Shown: one piece after another, positions 3,931 through 20,296 of the stretch | Position numbering within the stretch: the first letter of the stretch is position 1 | Layout: each line of letters begins with the position of its first letter | DNA from: Lachnospiraceae bacterium | Lineage (GTDB): Bacteria; Bacillota; Clostridia; Lachnospirales; Lachnospiraceae | Direction of reading: 5' to 3' | Assembly (NCBI GenBank): GCA_910575255.1 | Contig: CAJTEM010000002.1 | Coordinates: 124,001 to 188,000, forward strand | DNA length: 64,000 bases | Translations under genes and position numbers: made by a program | Notes under the pieces: model-generated | Databases searched by the model: none | What the model saw: the letters and a program-made list of their open reading frames with translations, nothing else | Told to the model about the DNA's origin: nothing

Positions 3931-3948
3931 ACATATCCTCCTCTCCAT

Positions 3949-4689
3949 AAATAAAAAATTTGGTAGTTTATTATAAAAATCTGCACTTCAACGCAGACTT
4001 TCATTCACCTGTCATATTTTTATACGTAATTAATTCACCATGTACCCTCTTGTTTTTCTGTTGATTGGTTTCCTCTCAAGTACATATACTTGCGCTTTCA
4101 GCTTTTGTACAACTTTACTATTTTTTTTGATGTGTCATCTATTATATCAGTCGTATTATACAATGTCAATATATTCTCTTTATATTTTGTTTATATTTTT
4201 TAATGTTTTTTATGTTTTATTTATTTTCGTTCATTTTTTGTTTATTTTTATTATTGGTTCCAGTCCATGTTAGACATATGTCACTGACACATAGCAGCCC
4301 TCGCGACATCTACTCTCCTTTCTTCCGGATTCCGGAAAAAAAGAGCAGGATACCTTTTTAGATTTCCTGCTGCATATCCTTTCTGTATTTTTTCAGAAGA
4401 TACAATTTCCCCTGTTTCTTTTTCCCCCGGGAACCGTTTTTTCCCTTCCATCCCCAGCTGTCTGAGAACCGCCTGATAGTAAGTGACAATCCGTCTCCTA
4501 TATTTCTTTTCCCGCTTCGTTTTTGCTCTGTGACAAAGACAGATCAAAGCCTGAAGCTTATCTTCTATCGAACCTTAACCGTTATGGACGATCTCTGCCT
4601 GTTTCATCACAGTCAGCGAAGATTTTTTCCTTAACACTTCACGAATCACATCTGATCGGATCCAGATGCAGATATCAAATTGCTCTCTT
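3949..4689. other. Intergenic region, AT-rich leader of nagE and unassigned sequence
   Basis: 4030-4270 is extremely T-rich on the plus strand with no convincing gene. It probably carries the nagE promoter and upstream region. A small hairpin (TCTGC/GCAGA) lies at about 3981-3999. An 88-codon minus-strand reading frame at 4281-4547 is basic and Arg/Lys-rich, with no recognised family and no clear ribosome-binding site. I do not call it a gene. Confidence 0.4.
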
Positions 4690-5922
4690 TTATTCATAAG
4701 ACAGCCGGATCCTCCCCTTCAGCTCCTCCCTAATATTCAGCTTCCAAAACCCCTCCCGGTTCTCCGTGTGGATGGGGATAATGGCCTCCCTGGGCGAAAC
4801 CCGGTTAATCACCTCTTCAATCACCCCTGCCGGGGCATGCCCGCTGGTGTGCATAGGAACAGCGTGATATCTGCGGACAAACTCATGAAGCTCTTTGTCA
4901 TATGCTTTCTGGGCCGGATTCACATATCCCTCCCACATGGAGTAGATTACAACAGGCTTTAGATCCGCAAACCGTCTAATCCATTTCTCATACCCCGGCT
5001 CCCCCTTAATCACGGTCACAAAGCCGTTCTTTCTCATCCACTCCTCCTGGGTCATCCCCACTCCCGGCAGAACGAAGTCAAACCGCACTTCATAGGCATA
5101 TTTAAAATCATAAAAAGGGGCTGCCCTCCCGGCTGTCTCGCGGAAAGTCTTAAGCTGGGAATACACATAAGAATTCCCGTACATTCCCATGCCGTAAAAG
5201 GTGCCCGCATGATAAAAAGAAGCCAGGGAGTCCAGATTGGTGGAAGAACAGATCAAAAATACATGTCGGTGGTCTTTAAACAATTCTTTCGCTTCTTTAT
5301 AAAGTTCGGCCTCGGAATAGGCCTTTTCCCCCGCCCTGCTCATCATGGTTCCTTCTGTAATCAGAATATCAACAGGACGTTTCCCATGGCGGACAATATA
5401 CTTCTCGATCACCCCAAACAATGCCTTCCCCCGATACCCGTGATTCCGATAATCTCCTGTATGGAGAATGGTCTTGTCCGGCGTCTCAATCAGAAACATA
5501 TAGGCGTCATAGGCCGAATGATCCACCAGATAGGGGGTCACCCGGATATCTCCCACTTCTATGGGACAATCCGCTTTCAGGCATCTCACTCTGTCCTCAT
5601 CCAGAAGCACTGCCAACTGTGCCTCTTTGTGCAGTGCCCGGTTGATATTGATCAGCACCTGCCTTGAGACGCTGCCCATATAGAGGGGAATATGGGCGGG
5701 AATCTCCATAAATCTGCCCATATGATCCCCATGGTAATGGGTAAAAAATACGGCGTCCACCTTCTCCTCATCCCAGGAAAGTTCCGCCCTTATTTCCTTC
5801 TCCCCTTCCTGCCCAGGGAGATTTTCCCCAAAGTCAATACAGATTTTCGCCTGACTTGTGGAGACAAGGACCACACACCCGCCGATCTGGTCTCCCTTAA
5901 GCACCTTAACCTTTGTTCCCAT
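4690..5922 (-). CDS. Metallo-beta-lactamase-fold hydrolase, RNase J/beta-CASP-like
   Basis: A 410-residue cytoplasmic protein. The zinc motif HYHGDH is at residues 62-67. Further metal-binding features are VDHSAYDA near 145, HTGDYRNHG near 165 and a C-terminal HTSGHAP near 360 followed by PIHTEN. This layout resembles RNase J-like or beta-CASP MBL hydrolases, but the protein is shorter than RNase J (about 550 residues). The substrate is unknown. The ATG at 5922 follows AGGAGGTATGG. An earlier ATG at 5955 would place that site inside the gene. It is isolated between nagE and the unknown cluster. Confidence 0.8.
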   Translation of the reverse strand: MGTKVKVLKGDQIGGCVVLVSTSQAKICIDFGENLPGQEGEKEIRAELSWDEEKVDAVFFTHYHGDHMGRFMEIPAHIPLYMGSVSRQVLININRALHKEAQLAVLLDEDRVRCLKADCPIEVGDIRVTPYLVDHSAYDAYMFLIETPDKTILHTGDYRNHGYRGKALFGVIEKYIVRHGKRPVDILITEGTMMSRAGEKAYSEAELYKEAKELFKDHRHVFLICSSTNLDSLASFYHAGTFYGMGMYGNSYVYSQLKTFRETAGRAAPFYDFKYAYEVRFDFVLPGVGMTQEEWMRKNGFVTVIKGEPGYEKWIRRFADLKPVVIYSMWEGYVNPAQKAYDKELHEFVRRYHAVPMHTSGHAPAGVIEEVINRVSPREAIIPIHTENREGFWKLNIREELKGRIRLSYE

Positions 5923-6044
5923 CCATACCTCCTGTCTCCTGAAATGTGTTCCCATGCAAAAACCATTTTACAGCTTCAGACACAGTAAAACCCTGAACGC
6001 ACTTGCTGTCTGCAGGCTCCCTGTGAACGTAACCATAAAATTTC

Positions 6045-6617
6045 TCACCAGGTCCCGTCTACAAAATCATCATCAATTTCCTCCCTCAAAGGCCTGCACA
6101 CCAGGACAAAGCTGTCCTCATCCCAGGAAAAGCAATGGTCAACGGGGTCATAGAAAACCTGATACCCCATATTGCGCAGCATTTCAAAATCCCTCTGCCT
6201 CGTCCGCTCCGACAGGCCGGGAAACATCCGGTTGTAGGAATCCTTTGCCGTAAAATACTCCCTTACGTCCCCATCTGCCGCATTGTCCTTCTTTTCCCAC
6301 AGAGGGATATCCGCGTTCTCCAGCCCGGACATCAGTCTTCCCAAGCGGTTCAGCCTTTTTAAATGAGCCTTTTTGCAGGGCGCCGCCTTCTCATTGAATT
6401 CTGGTATCTCTGTAATAAAATACCCCTTCCCCTTTCTGGAATATTTCACACTGACCAGGCCTGCCTCCCTCAGATCCGCCAAATCACGCTGCAGAAGGCG
6501 CTTATTGTAGGGAAACACCTCACAGATATTGGAAAACTGGGCAATGGCATACCTGCATATCACTTCATAAAGCCGCAGCTGGCGTTCCAGCCGCGGCATT
6601 TTTTCCTTTTCCTTCAT
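6045..6617 (-). CDS. HTH-domain regulator-like protein
   Basis: 190 residues. Residues about 8-65 (LERQLRLYEVICRYAIAQFS, then LLQRDLADLREAGLVSVKY) form a winged-helix-like region of the DeoR/WYL regulator type. A second segment (MFPGLSERTRQRDFEMLRNMGY, about 125-145) looks like another HTH. No WYL core was recognised. The ATG at 6617 overlaps the stop of the upstream gene (ATGA), so the two are translationally coupled. An in-frame extension to 6785 lies inside the upstream gene and is rejected. Confidence 0.6.
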   Translation of the reverse strand: MKEKEKMPRLERQLRLYEVICRYAIAQFSNICEVFPYNKRLLQRDLADLREAGLVSVKYSRKGKGYFITEIPEFNEKAAPCKKAHLKRLNRLGRLMSGLENADIPLWEKKDNAADGDVREYFTAKDSYNRMFPGLSERTRQRDFEMLRNMGYQVFYDPVDHCFSWDEDSFVLVCRPLREEIDDDFVDGTW

Positions 6618-7222
6618 AAAAATTTCCTTCTGGCCCCCGATGCCATCTTTTTTATCTTTTTCCTGAACTGATCTATAGTTTCCTGATTCTCCCGGCGGAT
6701 ATCCAGAGAAAGGTATCTCTTCTCCATATTCTCCGGCAGTCTTCCTCTCACCTCCATAATTCCCATATCCCCGGCTTCTCTCCATACCATATAAGACCAG
6801 GTCTCCTCCACAACCTGAAAATCGCTGCCTGAGCGTGATACTTTAGACATACAAAGCGTCACAGCAAACCCATCCGTGCTGAATTGATCCAGGATCTCAA
6901 AGTTTGGCTCACATTTTTCTTCGTAATTCCATACCTGAATTCCTTCCTGTCCATCTCCCATCTGGCTTTCGATGCGTTTCAGTTCCTCCCAGGCTGCTTC
7001 CCTGCGTCTTAAGCATTCCGCTTTTATCTCCGGCTCTCCATTATGCTTTTCCTCCCTCCGGTCGTAATACCGAATCCTGCCCTCCAGCTTCTTCTTTTCC
7101 CCTTCCAGTCGCTCTTTCACACATTCCCCGAATCTCTCCCGAAAATACGTCTGAGCCTGCTCTTTGCTTCCTCTTTCACTTCCTGCCACTTCTCTCTTCA
7201 CTGCCAGACATAAATAGTTCAT
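6614..7222 (-). CDS. Conserved hypothetical protein with coiled-coil N-terminus
   Basis: 202 residues with no recognised family. Residues about 20-95 are rich in Glu, Lys and Arg (FRERFGECVKERLEGEKKKL and onward), suggesting a coiled coil. The remainder is a compact alpha/beta-looking segment (WNYEEKCEPNFEILDQFSTD and onward). It starts at ATG 7222 after GGGAGGTAATGA. It is coupled to the HTH gene downstream by a 4-base overlap. A promoter at 7304-7332 makes this pair a separate transcription unit from the 7.4-17.8 kb genes. Confidence 0.6.
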   Translation of the reverse strand: MNYLCLAVKREVAGSERGSKEQAQTYFRERFGECVKERLEGEKKKLEGRIRYYDRREEKHNGEPEIKAECLRRREAAWEELKRIESQMGDGQEGIQVWNYEEKCEPNFEILDQFSTDGFAVTLCMSKVSRSGSDFQVVEETWSYMVWREAGDMGIMEVRGRLPENMEKRYLSLDIRRENQETIDQFRKKIKKMASGARRKFL

Positions 7223-7303
7223 TCATTACCTCCCAGATAATAAAAATAACTTCTCGTTGTCAATGTGCGTCTTTGATAGTGGCAATATATCACATCCTAT
7301 CTA

Positions 7304-7332
7304 TATACAGCGTCAATAGTATGACGTGTCAA
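7304..7332 (-). promoter_or_regulatory. Predicted promoter of the 7222-6045 gene pair
   Basis: TTGACA (7332-7327) and TGTATA (7309-7304) are 17 bases apart. The -35 region TTGACACGTCATA is matched 12 of 13 by TTGATACGTCATA at 18658-18646, at the same distance upstream of the decayed gene at 18.5 kb. This suggests a shared control element. Confidence 0.6.
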
Positions 7333-7355
7333 ATACTCTCTCGTATTGATACCTC

Positions 7356-7393
7356 GTTACTGTTCACGGGGGCCCCGTGAACGTAACAGTAAC
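7356..7393. repeat. 38-bp palindrome with the ends of the MITE-like family
   Basis: Begins GTTACTGTTCAC and ends GTGAACGTAACAGTAAC around a GGGGGCCCC centre. The ends match the terminal repeats of the 339-bp element at 44961-45299. It lies between two genes of the same strand, 19 bases beyond the stop at 7412, so it could also serve as a terminator hairpin. Confidence 0.65.
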
Positions 7394-7411
7394 GATGCCT
7401 CCTCTGACCCC

Positions 7412-8254
7412 TTACCATGCCTCCCCTGTAAGTCCGGCCAGGATCAGCATCCTGTCCATAGCCTCAAGAATATCCTCCAAATGATAGGCATACTCTCTAT
7501 TGCGGCTCCACTCCTCCTCCACCAGTTCCCGCTGTCTCTCATCCATGTTTTCCAGACAATGCTTTCTGACAGATTCCTCTGCAAAGGCCGTCCCCGCCGC
7601 CAAAGTCTTGTAATCCAGTTCCCTCATGACATACCGGAGCCTTTCCGGCCCCACTCTTCCGAATATCCGGTTAAAAGCCGTCTTGACGGAACGTTCCTTT
7701 TCAAAGCTCTTCTTTGCCCGCTCTTCCCTTTCTGCCCGTTCCCTCTCCCCCTCTTTCTTTGTCCACTCATGACAATATCTGTCATAATCCTCCAGCCACT
7801 GCTCCGGAACCAGAACCCGGAACATAAGAAGAAATCTCTCCGGCTCCACTCCTTCCAATATGCTCTTTCCGCCTGACAGATAAATCATTGCCACATACCA
7901 CTCATAGCCGGAACACCCCTTTTCTTTTGCCTGCGCCAGAATTTCTTCCTCCGCCTCGTCCCAATCCGGGGCATCCACGATTCTGCGTATGATGTGAAAC
8001 AGCAGTTCCTTTAAGGGCATATCCCCTTTCGCCATGGAAACCGCCAGAGCAATATTTTCTCCATCCTCTCCCCGGCTTTCCTCCTCCCACATCTCTGTCA
8101 CCTCATCCAATGCCAAAAGCCCACTCTCTTTTGCCGCAAAGCTGCATAAGCACATAAACTGCATCGCCGCAAATATCTGCTCTCTGTGCCGCTCAAAAGC
8201 TTCCTTTGCGTATGGTAACGCTTTCCTTTTCAAAATCTCCAAAGCTTGTTCCAT
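7412..8254 (-). CDS. Unknown-cluster protein, MotA-loop/FliG-C-like (family Y)
   Basis: 280 residues, soluble and highly charged. The N-terminal segment (KEAFERHREQIFAAMQFMC) is shared with the neighbour ending at 8270. AKESGLLALDE near residue 42 resembles the GLLALE motif of the MotA cytoplasmic loop. Residues about 160-185 form a charged helix. The C-terminal part (LRYVMRELDYKTLAAG, then EESVRKHCLENMDERQREL) follows the spacing of a FliG C-terminal helical unit. There are no membrane helices. The family resemblance is my inference from motifs. The ATG at 8254 follows TAGGAGAAAAG. Confidence 0.6.
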   Translation of the reverse strand: MEQALEILKRKALPYAKEAFERHREQIFAAMQFMCLCSFAAKESGLLALDEVTEMWEEESRGEDGENIALAVSMAKGDMPLKELLFHIIRRIVDAPDWDEAEEEILAQAKEKGCSGYEWYVAMIYLSGGKSILEGVEPERFLLMFRVLVPEQWLEDYDRYCHEWTKKEGERERAEREERAKKSFEKERSVKTAFNRIFGRVGPERLRYVMRELDYKTLAAGTAFAEESVRKHCLENMDERQRELVEEEWSRNREYAYHLEDILEAMDRMLILAGLTGEAW

Positions 8255-8269
8255 TCTTTTCTCCTATAT

Positions 8270-9418
8270 CTATTTGACCCTGCACCACAGCATCCCATAG
8301 TATTCTGTCACAGATCTTCCCATTATCTTTTCCAGGGAAGCACAAACCATTTTGTAATGCTCACTCATACCCTTTTCATCCCTGTCCAAACCTCCCTCCG
8401 GCCATACGGCCCAAAGCATCCCCTCAAGTCTTTCTGCCAGCCTTTTTCCATTGGACGGATAGAAATCCACCATCCATTGTTCCATAATTAACATCTGTTC
8501 TTCCCCGGATAAATACGGAAAAAGCCGCTTCTTTAACCTGCTGTCCCCATAGACAAACAACTCCGCCAGTCCGCGGATTTTGGTGATTTTCCCTGCCTGA
8601 AGGTCTGCTTCCTGACTCAATTCCTCCGACTCCCCATATTCATACGCTTCAAACTGAGCCGCGACGAACTGCCCGAATTCTTCCTCTGCCATCTCCTCCA
8701 TTTTCTTATGAAAAAGCTCCAGAACCGGAATCCCCCCTTTTTCCTCCTGCATGTTCTTTAACCTTCGGTTCCGCTCCTCCAAAGCCCTTTTTATGGCGTT
8801 CATTCGGCTCCGCTCCAAGTCCCCCAGGCATCGAACGCAAAAGCCCCGGTAACTGTCCTCTTCCTCCTCAGGGATCCAATGGGCCAGACGCTTCAGAAAA
8901 TGCTCTGCCTCACGGAAATCTCCCCGGAAAACATGATAATTGATTCCACACTGAAATTTACCCATCTCCAAAAGCCCAAGGAAATAGACTGCCTCCTCAA
9001 AAGCCCGGTAATCCCTGTAGGAATCCGTCATCATCTGTGTCTCCATAAGCCCTGTCCAGGTTTCCGGATTATACCGGTAATCCTTTATCATAAGATCAAT
9101 CCCCTGACAAAGAAAATTTTTAAGAGGGATCCCTTTCTTTGCACAATCCTTTACCAGTTCCCCTCTTAATCTCCACAGTTCTTCCCGCCGCAGATCATAG
9201 TCGCGGCGCTCTAAAAATGTCTTCTCCCACCATTCCTTAGAATCGCCTTTCCTCACAGGAATCGCCCGCCTGCTGCCCCAGTCCTCCTGGTTCTGGAGAA
9301 ACTCTGCGCAGAAACAGGCCGCCTCTATGGCTCTGTAAACCTCTTCCCTGTGGTTCAAAAAAGCCTCTTTTCCGTAATCCTTTACGGCGTTTTGTACCGT
9401 CTCGCCTATCTTTATCAT
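8270..9418 (-). CDS. Unknown-cluster protein, family Y paralogue
   Basis: 382 residues. The start KDYGKEAFLNHREEVYRAIEAACFCAEFL aligns with the N-terminus of the next gene (KEAFxxHRE). The middle is helical and rich in Glu, Arg and Trp. About residues 285-330 (GLAELFVYGDSRLKKRLFPY, then LSGEEQMLIMEQW) resemble a FliG-C-like unit. The ATG at 9418 overlaps the stop of the upstream gene by 4 bases, so the genes are coupled. It is longer than its two paralogues because of an inserted central helical region. No enzymatic motif is visible. Confidence 0.6.
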   Translation of the reverse strand: MIKIGETVQNAVKDYGKEAFLNHREEVYRAIEAACFCAEFLQNQEDWGSRRAIPVRKGDSKEWWEKTFLERRDYDLRREELWRLRGELVKDCAKKGIPLKNFLCQGIDLMIKDYRYNPETWTGLMETQMMTDSYRDYRAFEEAVYFLGLLEMGKFQCGINYHVFRGDFREAEHFLKRLAHWIPEEEEDSYRGFCVRCLGDLERSRMNAIKRALEERNRRLKNMQEEKGGIPVLELFHKKMEEMAEEEFGQFVAAQFEAYEYGESEELSQEADLQAGKITKIRGLAELFVYGDSRLKKRLFPYLSGEEQMLIMEQWMVDFYPSNGKRLAERLEGMLWAVWPEGGLDRDEKGMSEHYKMVCASLEKIMGRSVTEYYGMLWCRVK

Positions 9419-10446
9419 AAAATTCCGCCCCTCTTCTTCCCGCACCTTTCCTGCAATTCTTTCACATACTTCCGTCTGCCGTCATATGGCTCCTGCACCT
9501 TTCCCGGCTGACGGTCTCTTAGAATCCTTGCAAAACAGCTTTTGTCCCTGCAAATCAGCTCTCCCAACTCCCCCAGCCACTCTTCATTCTCCGCAAATTT
9601 TCCCTCCTGCCGCCTTAGGAACTGGATAAAAGGCAGGACAAACTCTCCGCCGAAAGTAATGGACGTATAGTTATTCAAGGGGATAACCCCGATTCCCACA
9701 CTCGGGCTTCCATGGAGACTATCAGAATACAGAAGCCATTGCTCATCCTCTTTGAGAAATTCCCCTTCCCACGGCTCCGCCCTGCTTACCACCACACCCT
9801 TTACAGACGGAAAAAAAGGAGAGGAAATGGTCTCCACAACCGTTCCCGAAGAGTAGGGAAGCCTCATGTAATGATAGTTCATGGGGCCGAACCAATAATC
9901 GCTTCTTGTGACAGCCTCCGCGGTCTCCGGCAGACAGTACAGGATCCTTCCCTCCGGATTTAAGATCATGTTCCATTCCCGTTCAAAGTATCGGCTGCCC
10001 CTCCGGTGAAATTTCCCAAGAACACCAAAAAAACATTCCGAGGCAAGGTCATATCTGTCCGCAGCTTCCCTTATCTGCTCCTTGATAAAATCAATCCCAT
10101 CCACGGGGCTGGTAAAGATTCTCTTTTTCAGAAACTCCTCTTTCCGTCCATGACAAAAAATATCAGCCTCATAACGGTTTCTGAGTCCTCCGCCGTGATA
10201 GATGATCTCTTCCAAGGTCTCTCCTATATCAATTCGTTTCTCCAAGATCTCCAAAGCCTGGCTTTCCCCAAGATGAGGCAGGCTCTGCGCCTCCTTCCTA
10301 AGCCCCCGCAGGCCCTCCAGCTTTTCCTCCAAAGTCCTGTGGGGCGCCGAAAGGATGCAGTTCGTCTGCTCCGCAAGGTTTAAGGGCGGTCCGGCGGACA
10401 GCCATGAGGCAATGTCCGGCGAATAAATCCATCGGTTAAAATCTAT
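9415..10446 (-). CDS. Unknown-cluster protein, family X (helical domain plus PxPFxxGD-type barrel)
   Basis: 343 residues. The N-terminal helical region (FNRWIYSPDIASWLS, then LEEKLEGLRGLRKEA) is shared in pattern with the 10494 and 12463 genes. Near residue 205, LPYSSGTVVE with following beta-rich segments aligns with LPVPFHAGDIVTF of the 10494 gene, suggesting a small beta barrel. The C-terminus is helical and basic. No known family was recognised. The ATG at 10446 has AAAGGAGG 8 bases upstream. The last codons overlap the start of the 8270 gene. Confidence 0.55.
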   Translation of the reverse strand: MDFNRWIYSPDIASWLSAGPPLNLAEQTNCILSAPHRTLEEKLEGLRGLRKEAQSLPHLGESQALEILEKRIDIGETLEEIIYHGGGLRNRYEADIFCHGRKEEFLKKRIFTSPVDGIDFIKEQIREAADRYDLASECFFGVLGKFHRRGSRYFEREWNMILNPEGRILYCLPETAEAVTRSDYWFGPMNYHYMRLPYSSGTVVETISSPFFPSVKGVVVSRAEPWEGEFLKEDEQWLLYSDSLHGSPSVGIGVIPLNNYTSITFGGEFVLPFIQFLRRQEGKFAENEEWLGELGELICRDKSCFARILRDRQPGKVQEPYDGRRKYVKELQERCGKKRGGIL

Positions 10447-10493
10447 CATAGGTTCTGCCTCCTTTGTTGTGGATTCCAATCTCTGACGATTAC

Positions 10494-11528
10494 CTATGCC
10501 GGATTTCGTTCCATATAAGATATAATCTGCCCTTCCGTCACCGTCTCCCTTCTCCCTCTGTCTGTCAGCTCAAATATGTGGTTCCACAAGGCGGCCCCAC
10601 GTTTTTCATCCCCGTTCACATACCGGCTCACCGACTCCAGCAGGCATTCCTCCTCTGGGAGCTGTCCATGGAAGGAGGATAAACGGTAAAGAGGGGACAT
10701 CCGCGGTGAATGGCATCCCGGAAAAACGTGTCCATGCTTCACTGCTCCTGTATCCCATGTTCCATCCCGTTCCCGATACAGTGCCTGGAGACAACAGCAA
10801 TCACTGTTGTCCCCCACTTCCAGAATGACCCCATGGCTCACAGGCCCAAAAGGACGACAGTCGAAGGTCACTATATCCCCTGCGTGAAAAGGAACAGGCA
10901 GGTTCAGATCATCATAGCCGCTAAAATCAAACCGTTCCCAGACAGGTAAATCCTCGCAGCAGCAGTAGCACACCTTGTAGTCCATCACGATGTAGCTATA
11001 GTCATTGTTCAGCCGCCCGCCTCCGTCTGGCGTCCACTTTTCAACATAAAAAGACCAATTCAGACGCTCCTCCTCATCCGCATCATTTCCCAAATATTCC
11101 TGAATTGTCCCAAAAATATGTTCCCATGTGAGGAATGCTCCCACTGTTTTCTCCTCAATCTGGGCCATATCTTCTTCATAGCTGCAAGCAGTCACGTAAA
11201 AGAACTCTCCCGGCTTCGGCCTCATCTCCTGAACGAGTCTGGAGGCCAGGCCTGCTAAGTCGGAGAAGAAGCCGTCCTTCCCGCCCTCGGCCAACAACAG
11301 GAACAGATCCCGCTTCCGCTCCAGTGAAATCGGCGCGCCTGCAACAGCGTCCGCTATCCTATGCCGGAAAAGGGGAAGCTTTTCGGGAGGCGCATCGTCA
11401 AACCCGCCGCAGCGCTCCTGGGGAGAAACATCATCACCGAAAGGGCATCGCGCAAGATAAGACGCCATCTCTGCAGACGGAAAAATCTCCTTCATAATCG
11501 GGCCAATGTCTTTTATCCCGTTACACAT
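10494..11528 (-). CDS. Unknown-cluster protein, family X, Cys-rich
   Basis: 344 residues. The N-terminus has the family X pattern (PSAEMASYLARCPFG, then ISLERKRDLFLLLAEGG). Two cysteine-dense stretches (CYCCCEDLP about residue 190 and DCCCLQ about 245) flank the conserved LPVPFHAGDIVTFDCRPFG segment. The cysteines might bind metal, but no standard spacing is evident. The ATG at 11528 follows AGGAGGAATTTT and lies 10 bases after the previous stop. An in-frame extension to 11627 is inside the upstream gene and is rejected. Confidence 0.55.
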   Translation of the reverse strand: MCNGIKDIGPIMKEIFPSAEMASYLARCPFGDDVSPQERCGGFDDAPPEKLPLFRHRIADAVAGAPISLERKRDLFLLLAEGGKDGFFSDLAGLASRLVQEMRPKPGEFFYVTACSYEEDMAQIEEKTVGAFLTWEHIFGTIQEYLGNDADEEERLNWSFYVEKWTPDGGGRLNNDYSYIVMDYKVCYCCCEDLPVWERFDFSGYDDLNLPVPFHAGDIVTFDCRPFGPVSHGVILEVGDNSDCCCLQALYRERDGTWDTGAVKHGHVFPGCHSPRMSPLYRLSSFHGQLPEEECLLESVSRYVNGDEKRGAALWNHIFELTDRGRRETVTEGQIISYMERNPA

Positions 11529-11538
11529 AAAATTCCTC

Positions 11539-12462
11539 CTATGAGAGTTCCCCCGTGAGCTGTTCCTCCCCGCCTGTCTTTGGAAACAACATCTTCCTGT
11601 CATCATCGAAATACAGTGTCTGGTCATGGCTGGTCACCATCCAGACATTCCGCTCAAGCTGTCTGGGAAACTTACTGCGGATCTTTTCCACATCCCCCTT
11701 TTCCCAGCCAGTGACAGCAAACATAAGCTCCGCTTCGTCAAAGCTTCCGGCACCTGGCACCGGTTCCTGAATAAGACCCAGCCGCAGTTTTGAATCCCAT
11801 ATACTGCGAATGGTTTTCACCAGATAAGCCTCGCCCCCCGGCCCCCTCAGAAACTTTGTGGTTTTGTTATAGTGGGCCTGGAGTCCGCTTTTGTTGCTGA
11901 AGGCCTTTGTGCCGTGCTTCAGCTCCACAATAAGGGGGATATATCGTTCCCCTTTCCGGTACACGGCAATCAGATCCATTCGGCCAAGTTCCCGATGTCC
12001 CGGAATCGCCAGTTCCATATCCATGGTCTGGCAGCTTCCGCAGGAAAATGTATTGGACTTTGCCAGTTTCTGCTGGACACTCCGCTCCGCCTTAGGGTGT
12101 TCCTCAAACCAGGCATCCATAATCCCCTTCAGTGCCTCCAGCCGGTCAAGCCACTGGCGCGGATCTTTGGATTTGATCTTGAGCCATGCCTCCAGTTGTG
12201 CAAACGGTTCTTTCGAGGTTTTTTTCAAATCTAAATATTGGGGGTCAAAGGTAAAGGTCAGGTTTTTCTGGCAGAGGTTAAACTCCAGCTTAAGCATAGA
12301 CCCGCCGCGATAATAGCAGCTCAAATAGTTGCAGCGAACCTCCAGGCAGCAGTCGTGGTCGCCCTTAATATGGTCCAGTAACGCCTGCAGCCCCTCATCC
12401 TTTCTGATCATATCAAAACAGTCAGAGTCAAGGCCCCGGCAATCCATATTCTTTTTCATCAT
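11539..12462 (-). CDS. PD-(D/E)XK-like nuclease-fold protein of the unknown cluster
   Basis: 307 residues. Around residues 155-185, MDMELAIPGHRELGRMDLIA followed by PLIVELKHG gives E...D...ExK. This matches a PD-(D/E)XK nuclease core: acidic residue, Asp in RMDLIAV, then Glu-x-Lys in VELKH. Upstream is a region of beta strands and an LDRLEALKGIMDAWFEEHPKAERSVQQKLA helix. Nuclease activity is inferred only from this motif. The ATG at 12462 overlaps the stop of the ancestral frame of the gene upstream. The N-terminal extension to 12489 lacks a ribosome-binding site. Confidence 0.6.
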   Translation of the reverse strand: MMKKNMDCRGLDSDCFDMIRKDEGLQALLDHIKGDHDCCLEVRCNYLSCYYRGGSMLKLEFNLCQKNLTFTFDPQYLDLKKTSKEPFAQLEAWLKIKSKDPRQWLDRLEALKGIMDAWFEEHPKAERSVQQKLAKSNTFSCGSCQTMDMELAIPGHRELGRMDLIAVYRKGERYIPLIVELKHGTKAFSNKSGLQAHYNKTTKFLRGPGGEAYLVKTIRSIWDSKLRLGLIQEPVPGAGSFDEAELMFAVTGWEKGDVEKIRSKFPRQLERNVWMVTSHDQTLYFDDDRKMLFPKTGGEEQLTGELS

Positions 12463-13157
12463 GTTTCTCCTTTCTTTTCTCCTAGACAACTAAGTCTTAA
12501 AAGCTTCCTGTCCTCTTCCCTATAACTCCTGCAGTAACGCTCCCGCAGCTGCCTATCCTTTCCGTCCAGCAGAAAAAAAGCATAACCGTTAAGCAGCAGT
12601 TCCTTTCCCGTTCCCTTTCTTCTGCCTCCTTCTTTGAAAAACCGTTTTCCAATCGCTTTCCCCGATCCCAGGTATTGATATAATCAAGGACAAAAGGCTT
12701 TTTGTCATAGCTGCCCCAGTGATACACCAAATCTCCCCGGCAAAAAGGCGTGGGAATGTCTATGCACATCTCCTGACAAATATCCTAAAAAGTCAGCACT
12801 TCCGAGGGAATCCTCATCCGCGCCGTCCTCATCCTCATAAAATGAATCTTCTTCATACCCATAGAAATAGACGCAATTCTTCCCATCCTGAAAAGCTTCC
12901 ATGCGGTTTTTCTGTGCATTCACATACTTCCTCAAAACATGATGCAGGCTCATCTTTGTCCCCTTTCGGCGATCCGAGAAAACCTCTTCATCTGCCGTAG
13001 TTTCCATCAGCTCCTGCCATGCCCACAGCTTCTCCTTTAGAGTCCTTTTCCTGCTCTGCCAGATCAAATATGCCATTTCAGAAGCACAAAAACCATAATC
13101 CAGCTCCTGCAAATGCTCCCTGATTGCCAGAGAATCGATAACGGGATAAATGTCCAT
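12463..13157 (-). pseudogene. Family X gene split by two frameshifts
   Basis: Starts at ATG 13157 after CGGAGGAAAC. The first frame (PVIDSLAIREHLQELDYGF and onward) runs to about 12788, where a T5 run is followed by a frame change. The second frame carries CIDIPTPFCRGDLVYHWG, which matches LPVPFHAGDIVTF of the 10494 paralogue. Near 12665 a third frame (ELLLNGYAFFLLDGKDRQL) continues and stops exactly on the start of the next gene. I conclude that one gene of about 230 codons was broken twice. Sequencing error in homopolymers is the alternative. If unrepaired, two short products (13157-12705 and 12769-12497) could be made. Confidence 0.6.
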
Positions 13158-13206
13158 GTTTCCTCCGTTCTGTGCGGGATTCTCATATATATCGGCTTTC
13201 TTATAT

Positions 13207-14040
13207 TTACTGAAGATAAAAAATCCTCTCATCCTCCAGCCTCAAACAAGCCAGCCTCCCTTCCGGCTGAATATCCTTAAACCCATAACCGCAGTCCAAA
13301 TCATAAAAAATGCAGTCCGTCTCTTCATCATAAGCCCGGTATACCTTTCCATGATTAAAAGGAAGCTCATATTTTGCCGTTGTGGGGGTATGGCCTGCCA
13401 GAATCATCCCGTGCTCCACTCCGCCGTATAGATAAGCATCGTCTCTGGCTCTCAGGTAAAAATCTTCCAATGAGTCATAGGTATGGTCCGTCTCCACACC
13501 TTCCAGACATGCAAGGCTCTCTATGTAACCGCCATGGACGATGATGCACCTTCGCCCATTCATCACAGTCTCATAATAATAGGGCATTTTCCCTATACAC
13601 GCTGCCCACACTGACAACTGTTCAAATGCCGTCCTTCTTTTCTTAACAAGATCTCCTATGGTCCCATACAAATCAAAATAGGATGTTATCTTTCTGACCG
13701 TCCCGTACACGGATATGGTATCCTCCACACTGGCAGTATCCATGCCCCATTTTCGAAAAATCATTCCCATGGCTTTCACGCAATAGCGAAACTCCTCATC
13801 ATGATTCCCCCTGACCAGGATGACATTTTCCCCAGGACTTTCGATCCACCTAAGCATCTCATAACTCTTCGGCCCCCTGTCAATATAGTCGCCGGCACAG
13901 ATCAGCCGGTCGCTGGCGGAAAATCCGATTTTACGGAACATTTTTTTCATCCCGTCATAATGACCATGAATGTCTGTCATAGCATAAGTGCCTATCTTAT
14001 ATCCCTCCTGTTCCTCGGGATGATCTCCCTGAATCAGCAC
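13207..14040 (-). CDS. PPP-family serine/threonine protein phosphatase-like protein
   Basis: A calcineurin-fold metallophosphoesterase. The motifs are DIHGHYDG near residue 24, GDYIDRG near 50, RGNHDEEF near 78, VHGGY near 168 and LAGHTPT near 210. These supply the two-metal site of PPP phosphatases and diadenosine tetraphosphate hydrolases. Homologues typically start just before TYAxxDIHGH. A good ribosome-binding site (AGGAGGG) sits 8 bases before ATA at 13995-13993, exactly there. The canonical choice is GTG at 14040, which I give as the boundary. It overlaps the end of the 14034 gene. A role reversing protein phosphorylation in the cluster is inference. Confidence 0.82.
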   Translation of the reverse strand: MLIQGDHPEEQEGYKIGTYAMTDIHGHYDGMKKMFRKIGFSASDRLICAGDYIDRGPKSYEMLRWIESPGENVILVRGNHDEEFRYCVKAMGMIFRKWGMDTASVEDTISVYGTVRKITSYFDLYGTIGDLVKKRRTAFEQLSVWAACIGKMPYYYETVMNGRRCIIVHGGYIESLACLEGVETDHTYDSLEDFYLRARDDAYLYGGVEHGMILAGHTPTTAKYELPFNHGKVYRAYDEETDCIFYDLDCGYGFKDIQPEGRLACLRLEDERIFYLQ

Positions 14041-14825
14041 AGCAGCTCTCTATTTTCCCTCAAACGTTCCATGATATCCATCACTTTATTCACACTGGCA
14101 AACAGTTTCTCTTCATCAGAAAACGCCCACTTCACCCCTTCCTCCTCCACCACATCCCGATACCGTGTGCTGAGATTCTCAAGAACCCTTGTCCGTGTTC
14201 CCTGTTCAAAAGCATATACACAGCCGGCTAAATCCCGGCAATCCACATCACGCACCAGTCTCTGCAGGCATTGATCCGGCAGTTCCTTGATTTTATTCTC
14301 CAACAGCCGTATCACTTCCTGCACTTCCTTCTGTTTGAACGTTGGACACAAAGCAGAAAACTTCTCCCTAATCTCTTTTTTATGCAGCCGTTCCTGCTCT
14401 TCTTTCCTCTTACCCATCAGCCTCTCATACTCTTTTCGCTGCTTTGCGGGCATCAGGCTTAACAGAACCTCCATAAGCAGTTCCTTACCTTCCAGCCTTT
14501 GAATACCGATCATTCCTCTCAAATGCAGATAATTCACCATGGCCTCCCCGCCTTCCGGCTCATTCATCCAGTATTCATTGGTTGCGATCTCGATGATCCC
14601 TTTCGGGCTGACCTCCTTTGCCGTTAACAAAATCAAATGCTTCAAAAAATCTGACACCGCCGCTTCTGCTGCCTCTTCCATCGCAAGCAGCCCCCCTGCC
14701 CGCCTGGTATCATAAAGCTCCATAACCGTATCCACTGCGTCCCCCAGCTTCTTTGACCCACACTTATCTTCCCTCAATTTGCAGATTGCGTTACGTCTCA
14801 CATCATCCAGCCATCTCTCCACCAT
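14034..14825 (-). CDS. Unknown-cluster protein, MotA-loop/FliG-C-like (family Y)
   Basis: 263 residues, soluble. Residues about 33-45 (TRRAGGLLAMEEAAEAAVSD) and about 90-105 (AMVNYLHLRGMIGIQRLEG) recall the MotA cytoplasmic loop. The C-terminal region (LQRLVRDVDCRDLAGCVYAF, then RTRVLENLSTRYRDVVEEE, then a helix VNKVMDIMERL) follows the order of FliG C-terminal helices. No transmembrane helices remain, so if the similarity is real the fold has been freed from the membrane motor. The ATG at 14825 has GGAGATATGG close upstream. It lies next to the phosphatase gene. Confidence 0.6.
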   Translation of the reverse strand: MVERWLDDVRRNAICKLREDKCGSKKLGDAVDTVMELYDTRRAGGLLAMEEAAEAAVSDFLKHLILLTAKEVSPKGIIEIATNEYWMNEPEGGEAMVNYLHLRGMIGIQRLEGKELLMEVLLSLMPAKQRKEYERLMGKRKEEQERLHKKEIREKFSALCPTFKQKEVQEVIRLLENKIKELPDQCLQRLVRDVDCRDLAGCVYAFEQGTRTRVLENLSTRYRDVVEEEGVKWAFSDEEKLFASVNKVMDIMERLRENRELLC

Positions 14826-14857
14826 ATCTCCTCCATGATAAATTTTGCTTCTTTTAA

Positions 14858-15283
14858 TTATTGTATCCTCTTATCATCTTCATGGCAATGATAATGAGCG
14901 GAATTGTCCACGATTACCCGAACATCCAGCCCTTTAAGATGAAACATGTTTACAATATCCCGCCAAAATCCCTCGTACCGGATAATGTTTATATTGAGAT
15001 AGAGCAGCGCCCTGCCGTCCGCTATCTCAACCCTCCCCCTTGGAAAATAGTTCCACCCATATTTTCTTAAATCTTTTCGGTGCTTCACAAACGACGCCCA
15101 AGTTTCTTTATGATTATATGCGTTCCCCTTCCTGGAATTAAAATCCGGATTCCCTGACACCTCCCCTTCCCTGTCACAAGAAACAGGAAAGGCAATCATC
15201 TCTGCCTCCGAAAAATCGCACTCATCCCTTTCATTGAACCCGCAGATAAACCAGAAAATACCCTTTGAAACATGTTCCCCCAT
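14858..15283 (-). CDS. Hypothetical protein of the unknown cluster
   Basis: 141 residues with no recognised family. Features are a Cys-containing N-terminus (ICGFNERDECDFSEAEMIAF), a WASFVKHRKDLRKYGWNYFP segment and a C-terminal YEGFWRDIVNMF followed by a His-rich tail (NSAHYHCHED). The ATG at 15283 follows GGGAGG by 10 bases. A TTG at 15289 is a weaker alternative. It lies between the DUF2786 gene and the family Y gene in the same direction. Confidence 0.5.
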   Translation of the reverse strand: MGEHVSKGIFWFICGFNERDECDFSEAEMIAFPVSCDREGEVSGNPDFNSRKGNAYNHKETWASFVKHRKDLRKYGWNYFPRGRVEIADGRALLYLNINIIRYEGFWRDIVNMFHLKGLDVRVIVDNSAHYHCHEDDKRIQ

Positions 15284-15331
15284 GATCAAAAATCCTCCCT
15301 TGCCCTTATCGGTAAGCTGCCTGAAAAAATA

Positions 15332-15982
15332 TCAGTTCCCGGAAATGCTCCGGCTATCCACAGCCCTTCTCCCGCTCCTCTCCCCGCTGGAAAAAGCCGC
15401 TCCATCCGAGGCCCTGTAATCCGCCCGCCTCCTGCTGTTATCTTTTTTAAGCTTCAGTTTCCCAAAGGCATCATCTACCTCCTGGGGTATGGCCGTCATC
15501 ATCTCATATCCCGTCCCCTCCCTGTCCTGTTCCTCAAACGATTCATAAACCCCCACACAAAATCCGTCTCTCCAACAAAACTCCTGGCTTTTGCTTCCCC
15601 CGTATGCCTTTGCCCCACGCTCCATAAACCGAACCAGATATTCCGCCAGCAGCAAAACAGCATTGGCATCCTCCTCAAATCCCACAAAACAGATACAGGG
15701 AACCGGCTTCTGCCGGTAAAAATCCCGGCACCGGAAATTCTTTGCCAAAGCCGCGGCCAGCATCAAATGATGCCGGGTAAGGGGGATACTCCTGAATCGC
15801 AGTTCCTTTATCACTACCCCTTTTTTTATGACCTCTTTCTGTTCATTTGCCCCCATGGAAATATGGTATTTCATCATCAGCCTTCTGGCCGCCTGCACAG
15901 CGGCCAAAGCCTCGTTCTCATTATCGCTCTCCGCCAAAGCCAAAAGACTTTTAATCTTGCGTCTTACCACTTCCCTATCCAA
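15332..15982 (-). CDS. DUF2786 domain protein
   Basis: 216 residues. The N-terminal IKSLLALAESDNENEALAAV, continuing into AARRLMMKYHIS (residues about 9-41), is the hallmark of DUF2786. The middle domain (HHLMLAAALAKNFRCRDFYR, then CFVGFEEDANAVLLLAEYLV) matches the remainder of the family. The C-terminus is Arg/Ser-rich. DUF2786 proteins have no established function but occur on phages and in conserved Firmicute clusters. The start at 15982 has no strong ribosome-binding site. It lies 50 bases after the TM2 gene. Confidence 0.7.
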   Translation of the reverse strand: MDREVVRRKIKSLLALAESDNENEALAAVQAARRLMMKYHISMGANEQKEVIKKGVVIKELRFRSIPLTRHHLMLAAALAKNFRCRDFYRQKPVPCICFVGFEEDANAVLLLAEYLVRFMERGAKAYGGSKSQEFCWRDGFCVGVYESFEEQDREGTGYEMMTAIPQEVDDAFGKLKLKKDNSRRRADYRASDGAAFSSGERSGRRAVDSRSISGN

Positions 15983-16031
15983 TATTCTGCCCTCCCCTGT
16001 CGCTTAAGGTTAAGCAAATCCCTGTTTCATC

Positions 16032-16817
16032 TTAAAACAACTCTGTAATACTGTTCCGGATAGCTTCCTCATCCACATAAATAGGAGTATCCGGGTCTAC
16101 CTCAGGAGGAAGTTCTATGGTTTCGTACCATTCCGCTCTGCTTTCAATTGCTTTCTTCTGAAACAATAATCTCAAAACACCTGAATTGTCTGTTATTCTC
16201 TTGTTTTTATAATCGCTTTCCATCTTTATAATTTCCATGTTCAACATATCAAGGGTCTGTCGTTCCTCTGGTGTAAATTCTCTGGTATGTCTGATTTTTT
16301 TAATCTTGGGTTTCCGTTTCTCTTCTTCCTTTTTATATGCGGCCCGTATGGCTGCCTCCTGCCGGTTCTTAATTGCCTTTTCTTTCACCTCCGCCCAAAA
16401 TCCCTTTTTCTCACCTTCTCCCGTCTGACCGGAGGGTTGGGACTGCCCTGCCTGTATTCTTTGCGCCGCCTGTACCGCCCGCCTTGCCTCCTGCTGCCCT
16501 CTCTCTGTTGCCTGGCCTGCCTCCTGCTGCCCTCTCTGTGTTGCCTGGCCTGCCTCCTGCTGCCCTTTTTGCCTTTCCTGAGGCTGTATCGCCTGCCTTG
16601 CTCCTGACAGATTCGCCTGCCCTGTATCCGCTTTTTTCTCCCCCTCGTTTTCTCTCCCCTTAACCATCTGGAAAAAAGCAATACAGATATCCACAAACCA
16701 TCCAACCCCAAACAATCCACAAGTAAAAAGCCAGATGAATCCTGTCACATATTTCTTCTGCATAAACCGGTGGATCCCCAAAAAGCCCCCAAAAAATGTA
16801 ACCAAAAAATTAACCAT
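16032..16817 (-). CDS. TM2-domain membrane protein with Gln-rich repeat linker
   Basis: 261 residues. The N-terminal TM2 domain (FFGGFLGIHRFMQKKYVTGF, then GLFGVGWFVDICIAF, residues 8-50) gives two membrane helices. A Gln/Ala/Gly-rich linker (about 70-125) contains tandem copies of GQQEAGQAT(Q/E)R. A charged helical cytoplasmic part ends with a short acidic module (ELPPEVDPDTPIYVDEEAIR). It is the only clearly membrane-anchored product of the cluster and could tether the rest, by inference. The ATG at 16817 follows AGGAGGG by 10 bases. Its promoter is at 16852-16880. Confidence 0.72.
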   Translation of the reverse strand: MVNFLVTFFGGFLGIHRFMQKKYVTGFIWLFTCGLFGVGWFVDICIAFFQMVKGRENEGEKKADTGQANLSGARQAIQPQERQKGQQEAGQATQRGQQEAGQATERGQQEARRAVQAAQRIQAGQSQPSGQTGEGEKKGFWAEVKEKAIKNRQEAAIRAAYKKEEEKRKPKIKKIRHTREFTPEERQTLDMLNMEIIKMESDYKNKRITDNSGVLRLLFQKKAIESRAEWYETIELPPEVDPDTPIYVDEEAIRNSITELF

Positions 16818-16851
16818 GCCCCATTACCCTCCTGCTTCCTGATTTTCCATA

Positions 16852-16880
16852 AGCATAACATCTGCAATTCTATTAGTCAA
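16852..16880 (-). promoter_or_regulatory. Predicted promoter of the TM2 gene and downstream cluster
   Basis: TTGACT (16880-16875) and TATGCT (16857-16852) with a 17-base spacer, 35 bases before the TM2 start. An operator-like motif abuts the -35 at 16882-16901. Confidence 0.6.
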
Positions 16881-16881
16881 T

Positions 16882-16901
16882 ATAATGCTTCTTATAGTGT
16901 A
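16882..16901. promoter_or_regulatory. Operator-like motif shared with the regulator gene
   Basis: ATAATGCTTCTTATAGTGTA here matches ATAATACTTCTTTTAGTT, present twice at 17843-17881. Its position just upstream of the -35 would suit an activator. Confidence 0.55.
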
Positions 16902-16947
16902 TCTCAACCATCCGTCATATGATCTTTACAGGCACATGCAGGTTTAC

Positions 16948-17385
16948 TCACGAAATATAATTAATCTTATCCGGCTCTGTGAGATAACCGATCCACTCAA
17001 TAGTATGAAGCCAGCTCTCCAGTCTCCTGTCCAGTTCTCCCGGCTTTGTCTCTATCAGTTTCCGGTTCAGAAAAATCTCTCCCTTTTCATTAATATCCGT
17101 TCTCCCCATAAACAAACTATCCGACTGGTAAGCCTGTGGGATTGCCTGGGTAATATGGCCATCCCCATCCTTTTTCAAACAGATCCTCATAAAAGGATCC
17201 ATAATCAGGTCGCCTCCGTAATCCTTCTTCTGGCACATCTCGACCAAGACAGATTCCTCATCCTCATCCCCGATACAAACCATAAAATCCCATTGGCCCT
17301 CTTTCTTGATTGTAGCTCCCGCAGGACCCACAGCCCTTAAAATTTTTTCCATTTTCTTTCCGTTTTCCATTCTGATTCTCTTCAT
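16948..17385 (-). CDS. Hypothetical protein following the cluster regulator
   Basis: 145 residues with no recognised family. Segments include EKILRAVGPAGATIKKEG, VCIGDEDEESVLVEMCQKK, GGDLIMDPFMRICLKKDGDG and a C-terminal helix RRLESWLHTIEWIGYL. The alternating short strands and DPFMR motif suggest a compact alpha/beta domain. The ATG at 17385 has AGGAGAAAATTTT. Extension upstream to 17529 would overlap the regulator gene. It lies 16 bases after the regulator stop, so the two are probably co-transcribed. Confidence 0.6.
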   Translation of the reverse strand: MKRIRMENGKKMEKILRAVGPAGATIKKEGQWDFMVCIGDEDEESVLVEMCQKKDYGGDLIMDPFMRICLKKDGDGHITQAIPQAYQSDSLFMGRTDINEKGEIFLNRKLIETKPGELDRRLESWLHTIEWIGYLTEPDKINYIS

Positions 17386-17401
17386 AAAATTTTCTCCTTC
17401 C

Positions 17402-17818
17402 CTATAAACAATCCTCGCCGAACTCATAGAGGATATCATTGACCTCCGCCACGGAAATCCCCCGCACAATTCCGAATATGACAATAGAATCCCTCCGATT
17501 TCGCGCATCCAGGCAGACCATACGTCCAATCCGCAGCAAATACTGAGTTTCCTCCAGATTCAGTTTCATAGCCAAAGCAATGCACAAAACCACGTTCCTG
17601 CCCGGATTTTTAATTCCGCGAAACACCTGATAAATATACTCCCCCTTATTGGACCTGTCAGCCACCTGCGACACCCGCATCCCCTTCTTTTTCAGCAATT
17701 CTTTCAAATGCGCACAAAGCGGAATATCCAAAAACTCCTCCGCATTAGAAGCAAGATATTCCGCCATATTCTTCCCCTCCATAATCTCATTTACCAGTTC
17801 CTCCGTATTCTTTTTCAT
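17402..17818 (-). CDS. HTH transcriptional regulator heading the unknown cluster
   Basis: 138 residues. Residues about 36-90 (LKELLKKKGMRVSQVADRSN, then YIYQVFRGIKNPGRNVVLCI) form an XRE-like helix-turn-helix. The C-terminal part (NLEETQYLLRIGRMVCLDAR, then RRDSIVIFGI and VNDILYEFGEDCL) is a second conserved region. From memory, regulators of this form occur beside serine/threonine kinase and phosphatase genes in Lachnospiraceae. Here the cluster has a PPP phosphatase but no kinase. It is likely autoregulated through the direct repeats at 17843-17881. Confidence 0.75.
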   Translation of the reverse strand: MKKNTEELVNEIMEGKNMAEYLASNAEEFLDIPLCAHLKELLKKKGMRVSQVADRSNKGEYIYQVFRGIKNPGRNVVLCIALAMKLNLEETQYLLRIGRMVCLDARNRRDSIVIFGIVRGISVAEVNDILYEFGEDCL

Positions 17819-18300: not shown

Positions 18301-18563
18301 CTATTTATTATATACCCTCCAAACCGCTTTGTACTGAACCGCCGGTACAATCCCTCTCCATGTACCCCATATAGTTATACCAACTCCCGTCAAATCCAAA
18401 TTCTTTGCACCACACGCCAAACAATGGCTCCAAAAAAACAGGTCCCTTAAATTTTCCAGCTGTCCGATGACAAAGGAGGCTTTCTTCTCCAGTCCTCCCG
18501 GATTTCCTTTGACAGAATCCACTCATAGATATTCCATTCCGCAGATAAGCCGTTGCTTTTCAT
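18301..18563 (-). pseudogene. Decayed family X paralogue
   Basis: From ATG 18563 (GGAGG ten bases upstream) a short frame encodes SAEWNIYEWILSKEIRED, matching the family X N-terminus (IYPVIDSLAIREHLQEL in the 12463 gene). It soon stops, while other frames continue with family-like pieces (EKKASFVIGQLENLRDL, then FLEPLFGVWCKEFG). I read this as a paralogue broken by several frameshifts. A promoter-like TTGATACGTCATA at 18658-18646 matches that of the 7222 gene. Confidence 0.45.
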
Positions 18564-18877: not shown

Positions 18878-20296
18878 TTAGTGCGGCGGCCCCGGAGTAT
18901 GGATTACATACTCACAGGGAAGCTTATATGCGTTTGTGATTTTCGCCTTCCCTGTTTCACATCCGCTTAAGAGACGGCACTCTTCCAATAGTTCCGGGCC
19001 CGCGGCGCGGTGGATTGCCCCGTCCACGCCCCCGCCTCCAAGCAGGCTTGTATTTGCGGCGTTTACAATGGCATCCACATCATGCTCCCCCGTAATATCG
19101 CCTTTTGTGGCAATAAATTCTGTCTTTGGCCCTTCCCTGTCCATGCCATCTTTCCAACGCATATAGATGTATTTCCGGATCCAGTCCGGATCCCCATAAC
19201 GACTATATTCACTCATCTGGCAGCCATAGCACAGGTCGTCCGCCATCTCAAGGATCACATCGGAAAGCTCCAGATTCTTCTTCCATTTTTCCTCTATCGC
19301 CTCATAGCCGCAAAGCGCCCCCAGAATATTTCCCGTAACCGCTCCCGTTGAATCGCTGTCGCCGCTGTGGTTCACAGCCGCTGCCACTCCTGCAGAAAAA
19401 TCGTCCTGATATTTCAGGGCACAGTATATGGCGATGCCAAGCGTCTCTTCCGCTACCCACCCCTCGCCAAGCCTGTGGATATTGTCAAGGTCGCCCTCCC
19501 CGTTTTCGGAAAGCGCAACGGCAAGCTCCATCATTCGGACAAGCGTGCTCAAATAAGGCTCACCGGAAAACAGCTTGGCCATTGTCTCCTTCGCTTCCAG
19601 CACATTTTCCTTCAGCGTCATTTCACGCCCTGGACAGACAATGCGGTTTATGATATGAACAAGGGCAGAAGCGCTCATATAACCAAGCGGATGTCCGTGG
19701 GTGATTGCCGCAATTTCCGCGCCTTCCCTGTCAAGCTCCTTTAACTCCCCATGGAAGTTATGCCACAGCCCCAGCGGCGCCACCCGCATGATTCCGCCGC
19801 AGCCCTTGCTGTTGTTTTTCGGGTCGTTCATGCAGCCCGGAGTTCCTCCCTTAAGGGCGGATATGCAGGTATTTCCGGGCGCCCTGCGGCTGTATAGCTC
19901 CGGCACGTCTAAAAGCCATGAAATATGTTTTTCCCTGGATTTTTGGGGCATCCTCTGAACCTTGTCGAAACTTTGCTCCTGCGTAAGCAGCCAGTCCATG
20001 TAAGAATTTGCCACATAACAGCGCGGACCGCCGCCGATACCGCCCATGGACAGTTTGGTTTCCGCCACAAGTATGCCGTCCGCCGTAAACAGAGACATCT
20101 GTGTATCGTCTGAAATCAGGGCTTTCCCGCTTTCCTCATCAAGGGTATACTCCTGTATTCCCTGTGGGCCGTATTTTGAGAAAATCTCACTTTCCATGAA
20201 AAATTCGATTGGGTATCCCAGTGCATCCCCCACCGCTCCGCCAAATAAGCTCCCCCTGATCTTGTCACAAAGCATATCCATATTTTCATTTCCCAT
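18878..20296 (-). CDS. ADP-ribosylglycohydrolase fused to a truncated macro domain
   Basis: 472 residues. Residues about 10-370 are an ADP-ribosylglycohydrolase (DraG-like) domain with GAVGDALG near 17, SDDTQM near 62 and [19 protein letters not shown] near 310, which hold the Mg-binding acidic residues. Residues about 400-472 begin a macro domain ([20 protein letters not shown], then IHRAAGPEL, then [10 protein letters not shown]). They stop after roughly 75 of its usual 150 or more residues. Together such proteins remove or bind ADP-ribose. The truncation abuts the repeat at 18707-18816. The start overlaps the upstream gene by 11 bases. Confidence 0.82.

Follow-up and report, generated by a model that had tools for sequence, protein, structure and literature searches.

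A central question of bacterial motility is how the stator drives the rotor. The contact between the two was resolved with a membrane stator bearing an artificial FliG_C fusion: as described in the accessible part of that work, FliG_C in a C. sporogenes MotA(1-262)-FliG(239-333) chain docks between adjacent MotA heads, with the torque helix in the cavity (PMC11302681). The charge pairs of the stator-rotor contact are given as R90/D288-D289 and E98/R281 in the accessible part of a survey of MotAB and its non-flagellar homologues (PMC12505986). Here we describe a gene cluster running from 17818 down to 6045 of a 64,000-nucleotide stretch ("the window") of a 5.14 Mb Lachnospiraceae genome (GCA_910575255.1, contig CAJTEM010000002.1, positions 124,001 to 188,000; contig C2 of genome G000 in our numbering). 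Its hallmark, family Y, is shown by profile comparisons and a predicted structure to be a natural soluble chimera of a MotA head and FliG_C. The initial annotation of the window correctly grouped the Y genes at 7412, 8270 and 14034 as paralogues and missed this nature.

The cluster holds 16 open frames, taken as 15 genes and lettered A to P, all on the minus strand. In the product of gene F (Y3; 14034..14825) the predicted MotA head spans residues 25-136 and FliG_C residues 174-263. Its AlphaFold2 model (predicted local distance difference test, pLDDT, 89.7) was recognised as MotA head plus FliG_C by VIA-align structural comparison, and among the best structural matches is PDB 8ucs, to judge from its title probably the engineered C. 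sporogenes construct. Pfam finds FliG_C with an expectation value (E) of 2e-6, and residues 25-84 give weak NCBIfam matches to MotP (E 4e-4) and MotA (E 4e-3), both far under the cut-offs. Gene F also matches the profile of the type-1 Y proteins over nearly its full length (E 1.7e-24 over 23-271/297; hhalign 99.9%). Gene N (Y1; 7412..8254) carries FliG_C (E 1.5e-6) and is linked by hhalign to the type-1 profile (99.5%, E 2e-21) and to F (97.5%). Its neighbour M (Y2; 8270..9445) is a diverged member of the family, which pairs with N (99.6%, E 1.8e-23), shows no hhalign match to the type-1 profile and reaches just 7.9% in the direct comparison with F. The M profile used for this purpose comprised 7/10 M sequences, the three in which the read ends within 60 residues being left out.

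A profile built from seven relatives matches both PDB FliG (E 3.5e-25) and PDB MotA (E 3.4e-14), and Pfam detects FliG_C in 15/15 type-1 members. The N-terminal 146 residues of one relative (L019) alone match MotA with E 9e-9 over the whole sequence and with E 2.7 and 4e-4 for the segments 81-129 and 212-257 taken singly; the alignment jumps over MotA 130-211. The maximum 19-residue hydropathy is 0.72-1.16 in F, N and M, and at most 1.65 (L021, borderline) across 25 proteins. Judged by the alignment gap and the hydropathy, the Y proteins lack the transmembrane helices and ion channel of MotA, and they retain its cytoplasmic torque-generating head. From FliG they have the FliG_C domain and neither the N nor the middle domain, since Pfam gives FliG_C only and the N-terminal half of F is a MotA head. 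Among the 16 cluster frames none has a MotB-type match in Pfam at E 1, and the gene for the genome's true FliG lies on another contig, C11.

The residues of the stator-rotor contact were compared in the 25 proteins. The equivalent of MotA R90 is R or K in 21/25 and that of E98 is E or D in 22/25, a count partly imposed by the motif search for Y proteins, which itself demanded G93 and E, D or Q at the E98 position. On the FliG side, the R281 equivalent is R or K in 18/25 and an acid stands at 288/289 in 20/25, R297 is kept in just 6/25, and several Y copies have an eroded torque helix. Since the order of the parts is that of the published MotA-FliG_C fusion without its membrane part, the handshake is presumably kept, either among the Y proteins themselves or with the motor.

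A search with PF01706 detected FliG_C in 212/397 genomes of the same bacterial family; the 37 genomes with extra or weak matches were re-examined, and 24 proteins from 23 loci were read. Their architectures are MotA head plus FliG_C, helix-turn-helix (HTH) plus head plus FliG_C, HTH plus FliG_C only (about 185 amino acids) and, once, two FliG_C-like repeats. Proteins of the HTH type match both HTH_3 and FliG_C (6/6). Their middle part corresponds to the type-1 head (hhalign 96.5%, E 9e-10) and the FliG_C parts likewise correspond (97.8%), four mismatched control pairs giving 0.1-0.5%. Headless HTH plus FliG_C-like proteins of roughly 185-215 amino acids were observed in several genomes of the family (L028, L029, L038-L040). 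Among the PF01706 matches listed for 341 genomes of the class, no Y-sized gene lies outside the family; the listing leaves out second matches of G929 and G995 and single weak matches of G1094 and G1122. The weak or second matches listed there are FliG fragments or frames of 410-468 amino acids, which by their size we take to be MgtE-like. A phylum-wide profile search was discarded as a measure of breadth, being swamped by true FliG and MotA. No Y relatives were found in phages, nor in viral contigs by a short exact-pattern search; 33 plasmid records match part of the Y query, and among the matches listed (15) all are FliG or unannotated. With these results and no tRNA in the window (tRNA scan), a mobile-element origin was rejected.

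The link between family Y and flagella is statistical. Extra FliG_C genes occur in 26/210 flagellate and 2/187 other genomes (Fisher p 4.8e-6, without tree correction). Restricted to head-containing proteins the counts are 19/210 and 2/187 (p 4e-4), the 19 including G088, whose protein lacks a head motif and has two FliG_C-like repeats, and G403, with a marginal FliG_C match (E 9e-4). Flagellate here means that a rotor gene is present (210/397 genomes; G134 is included through FliM, E 1e-61). Second matches inside the FliG frame (G062, G093, G111, G195, G196, G407) and short pieces (G245, 43 amino acids; G319, 105; G390, 70 with one stop; G134, 35) were excluded from the 26, and G071, G310 and G336 were counted on frame size and profile range alone. 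FlhA was examined in the two exceptions, the window's genome and the eight genomes with an M-N cluster. One exception, G089, has FlhA (E 7e-270); the other, G439, is a 75% complete genome with no FliM or FlhA match. FliG and FlhA are both present in 8/8 M-N cluster genomes, of which G446 and G448 are probably G388 and G329 of the 397 (identical FliG and FliG_C positions). In one case (L032) an HTH-type gene is situated downstream of genes whose products have FliK (E 2e-10) and FlhB C-terminal (E 1e-21) domains. Two solitary type-1 genes adjoin receiver-domain genes, namely a hybrid sensor kinase (L020, 9382-11730) and a small receiver-domain protein below the cut-off (L021, 787-1191), possibly a signalling context.

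The initial annotation had proposed a search for conserved neighbourhoods, and such a search bears out a conserved multi-gene unit. One N-gene alignment scan of named genomes yielded eight loci, most with several cluster genes; Lachnospiraceae (n=4), Clostridiaceae, Clostridium and Lachnotalea are among the sources. By tblastn, M stands beside N in 8/8 loci, and L is found in 8/8 (weak in L044, a contig of only 4 kb), the phosphatase gene G in 7/8 (weak in L047), E in 6/8, D and P in 5/8 each, O in 5/8 (weak in L047), the metallo-beta-lactamase (MBL) gene described below in 5/8 (fragments in L045), and J and K in 2/8 each. Gene order is shuffled among the loci; in L041 the genes from C to MBL stand in the same order as in the window. 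In a distant genus (G259, L025) a Y gene occurs with an E-like gene, an X3-like gene and a protein with the motif HCEAGISRS, by this motif presumably a CX5R phosphatase. In L045 a second, diverged M-N-like pair (2519-4406) lies upstream of the main pair, which suggests that M and N are duplicated together.

Scattered single homologues among unrelated neighbours had been named as an outcome that would speak against a system. Read by eye, Y relatives in the loci examined from other genera do lie mostly among unrelated genes, which makes the family broader than the system; the gene set of the cluster is conserved, and it is not a plain collection of housekeeping genes, the other alternative raised. 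By these comparisons one group shares a conserved, modular set of genes, which is the system, and family Y extends beyond it. The conserved unit also reaches past 6045-17818 to the MBL gene (4690..5955, minus strand), a metallo-beta-lactamase-fold protein with a weak RMMBL match in Pfam that adjoins P in L041, L042 and L048. Perhaps it includes 18878..20296 (minus strand) as well, a possible accessory gene for an ADP-ribosylglycohydrolase (DraG) with a macro domain (Pfam E 1e-62 and 2e-23), whose relatives occur in L043, L046 and L047, one of them adjoining the block in L012/L046. The macro domain of the window's copy is truncated (profile positions 1-64 of 118).

The cluster had been annotated as a co-directional series under an HTH regulator. 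The 15 genes do share the minus strand, and the first, A (17402..17818, 138 amino acids), is HTH_3-like with E of only 0.0013, under the curated Pfam cut-off. Homologues of A occur in L042 and, partially, in L043; an apparent match of A to the phosphatase was judged spurious. B (16948..17397) encodes a small protein of ambiguous start, the frame being open to 17529, with homologues in L042, L043 and partially in L045. C (16032..16817) is a TM2-domain protein (E 1.6e-12; hydropathy maximum 1.93) and the clearest membrane protein among the products. D (15332..15982) carries DUF2786 and DUF7168 (E 4e-11 and 1e-15; phrog_421 E 6e-29). E (14858..15289) has no Pfam match, nor have its homologues, and with H60, W64, YFPRGRV and HY invariant in an alignment of six it may represent an undescribed enzyme family, the invariant YFPRGRV being flanked by H/W and HY. 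G (13207..14040) is a PPP-type phosphatase with the metallophosphoesterase domain (Metallophos, PF00149, E 2e-17; phrog_246 E 4e-30) and the motifs DIHGH, GDYIDRG, GNHDE, HGG and GHTP, whose roles we take to be those in PPP phosphatases. The PPP, DUF2786 and TM2 genes were thus correctly named at the outset. O (6614..7222) is of no recognised family, and P (6045..6785) has a weak WYL/CasR-type HTH (PADLOC WYL E 0.0015). Beyond C, D, F, G and N, no cluster gene has a Pfam match above a cut-off. Frames overlap at F/G, G/H, H/I, J/K, L/M and O/P, in agreement with the stop-start overlaps described before, and the remaining gaps measure 4-189 bases; the large J/K and O/P overlaps may merely reflect too-early listed starts. 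Elsewhere in the window, the plus-strand frames 45096-45401 and 50438-50737 open with the same sequence of about 60 residues, a DNA repeat some 5 kb apart.

The second family proposed in the initial annotation, X, is weakly supported. Remote kinship within it is plausible from profile comparison: L (X1; 9415..10479) gives an hhalign value of 15% with K (pairwise E 4e-4, 315 columns) and of 20% with H (E 2e-4), four unrelated control pairs giving E 0.36-0.76, and hhalign finds no match between K and H. No conclusion on the fold can be drawn from the poor AlphaFold2 model of L (pLDDT 44.7). K (X2; 10494..11627), whose real start is probably later than listed, has homologues in L011, L012/L046 and L041. 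The decayed copy at 12463 is indeed a broken gene, H/I (12497..13232; frames 12705-13232 and 12497-12769), putatively of family X and with a homologue in L025. The presumed further remnant at 18301-18522 is unrecognisable as X, its best local match being K at E 0.19. Gene J (11539..12489) is a putative PD-(D/E)XK protein, as suggested earlier: D172, E189 and K191 are invariant in 3/3 aligned homologues and PADLOC gives a weak match to PDC-M32A (E 0.057), while neither a Pfam match at E 1 nor a PDB sequence match was obtained. In L011 (G017, 3616-12960) homologues of J and K, convergent unlike in the co-directional window, adjoin what looks by eye like a type I CRISPR-cas operon with a helicase-like gene (3616-6411).

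That the Y proteins are a motor-linked clutch, brake or sensor within an operon under the regulators A and P has, in our estimate, an even chance of being correct. The association with flagellate genomes favours a motor-linked role. The two ends of Y, head and FliG_C, would have kept their recognition of each other, of the real motor, or of both; the Y head would grip FliG_C of the rotor and Y's own FliG_C would be gripped by MotA heads, which would make Y a clutch, a brake or a sensor of motor parts. Within the operon, F together with the M-N pair would face the motor, and the PPP phosphatase, the MBL-fold enzyme and the further uncharacterised products might serve for output or for control. 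The HTH versions point to transcription as a read-out, to which they would relay the same contact. Both the clutch or sensor step and the roles given to G, D, E, J, X and O are our inference. A more general proposal, which we put forward tentatively and a little below even, is a membrane-free rotor-stator module, in which cytosolic MotA heads and FliG_C mesh without ion flow as a clutch or sensor, HTH forms are transcriptional readers, and the window's operon is one elaborate branch that includes a phosphatase and in which M and N form a heteromeric pair. Several observations weigh against a motor-linked function. The torque helix is partly lost in the window's own Y copies; in the loci read, no flagellar neighbours of Y genes other than those of L032 were seen by eye; and SigD-like promoters are not enriched at Y and cluster regions (29 regions including gene A, against 481 controls including Y genes), so that membership in the flagellar regulon through such promoters was rejected.

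Alternatively, Y may bind only Y, and M bind N, in a self-assembling ring or chain that gathers the cluster enzymes and does not involve the motor. M and N are adjacent in 8/8 loci, as partners would be, one chain keeps both contact halves, the cluster enzymes have no known motility role, and the engineered fusion is described in the accessible part of its report as docking onto its own oligomer (PMC11302681). By itself, however, such a scaffold leaves the near-restriction of extra FliG_C genes to flagellate genomes unexplained, and losses of R90 and of the acidic site are, in the few cases at hand, not clearly compensated inside one protein; we regard it as somewhat unlikely. The MotA/FliG fusion could also have been domesticated as an all-helical binding module without any motor role, for example for ligand sensing in the HTH versions, where it is used with a DNA-binding domain. 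Erosion of the torque helix in several copies would suit this explanation, but most copies retain the charged interface positions and Y genes track flagellate genomes, which makes it unlikely.

An anti-phage or stress-defence system, as initially proposed, appears improbable. The nuclease-like pattern in J, the place of J and K homologues beside what looks by eye like a CRISPR-cas operon in one genome, and the broken gene copies in the cluster are in its favour. Against it, J occurs in only 2/8 loci, Y relatives are lacking in phages and, within the pattern-limited search, in viral contigs, and a PADLOC-DB 2.0.0 scan of ten frames (A, B, E, F, H, J, K, M, O and P; C, D, G, I, L and N were left out) matched no known defence system, its best hit being the generic WYL-type HTH of P mentioned above. 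The cluster may represent a reuse of motor parts that has not been described before. A natural soluble protein with both surfaces would make the rotor-stator contact accessible to ordinary biochemistry. It also suggests a takeover of motor parts for regulation, the HTH proteins with stator middle and rotor C-terminal parts included.

Like MotA, the Y proteins have the cytoplasmic head fold and the R90/E98 motif, but they are devoid of transmembrane helices 3 and 4 and of an ion channel. With FliG they share the FliG_C fold and, in most members, the torque-helix charges; FliG's other domains were not found in Y, and the real FliG is a separate protein. ZorA of the Zorya system is a membrane protein. 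The EpsE clutch presumably acts as proposed for Y, through contact with rotor and stator, and we take the folds of EpsE and YcgR to be unrelated to that of Y. Zorya resembles Y in having a MotA-related domain outside flagella, and Zorya-type proteins are handled together with MotA homologues in the accessible part of the survey mentioned above, where a term search finds 'FliG' a single time and neither 'soluble' nor 'fusion' (PMC12505986); PADLOC gives no Zorya match for F and M. Among the papers listed by searches of an open-access collection, which leaves most subscription papers uncovered, no description of natural MotA-head/FliG_C proteins was found. The closest counterpart in layout is the engineered fusion, which in the accessible part of its report likewise has MotA followed by FliG_C in one chain; that construct is artificial, membrane-embedded and accompanied by MotB, whereas Y is natural and free of membrane helices, with no MotB identified in the cluster (PMC11302681). 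In its proposed action, contact with both rotor and stator, Y resembles the YcgR motor brake, as far as the accessible part of its description goes (PMC12713396). Compared with YcgR and EpsE, Y differs in being itself built of rotor and stator parts.

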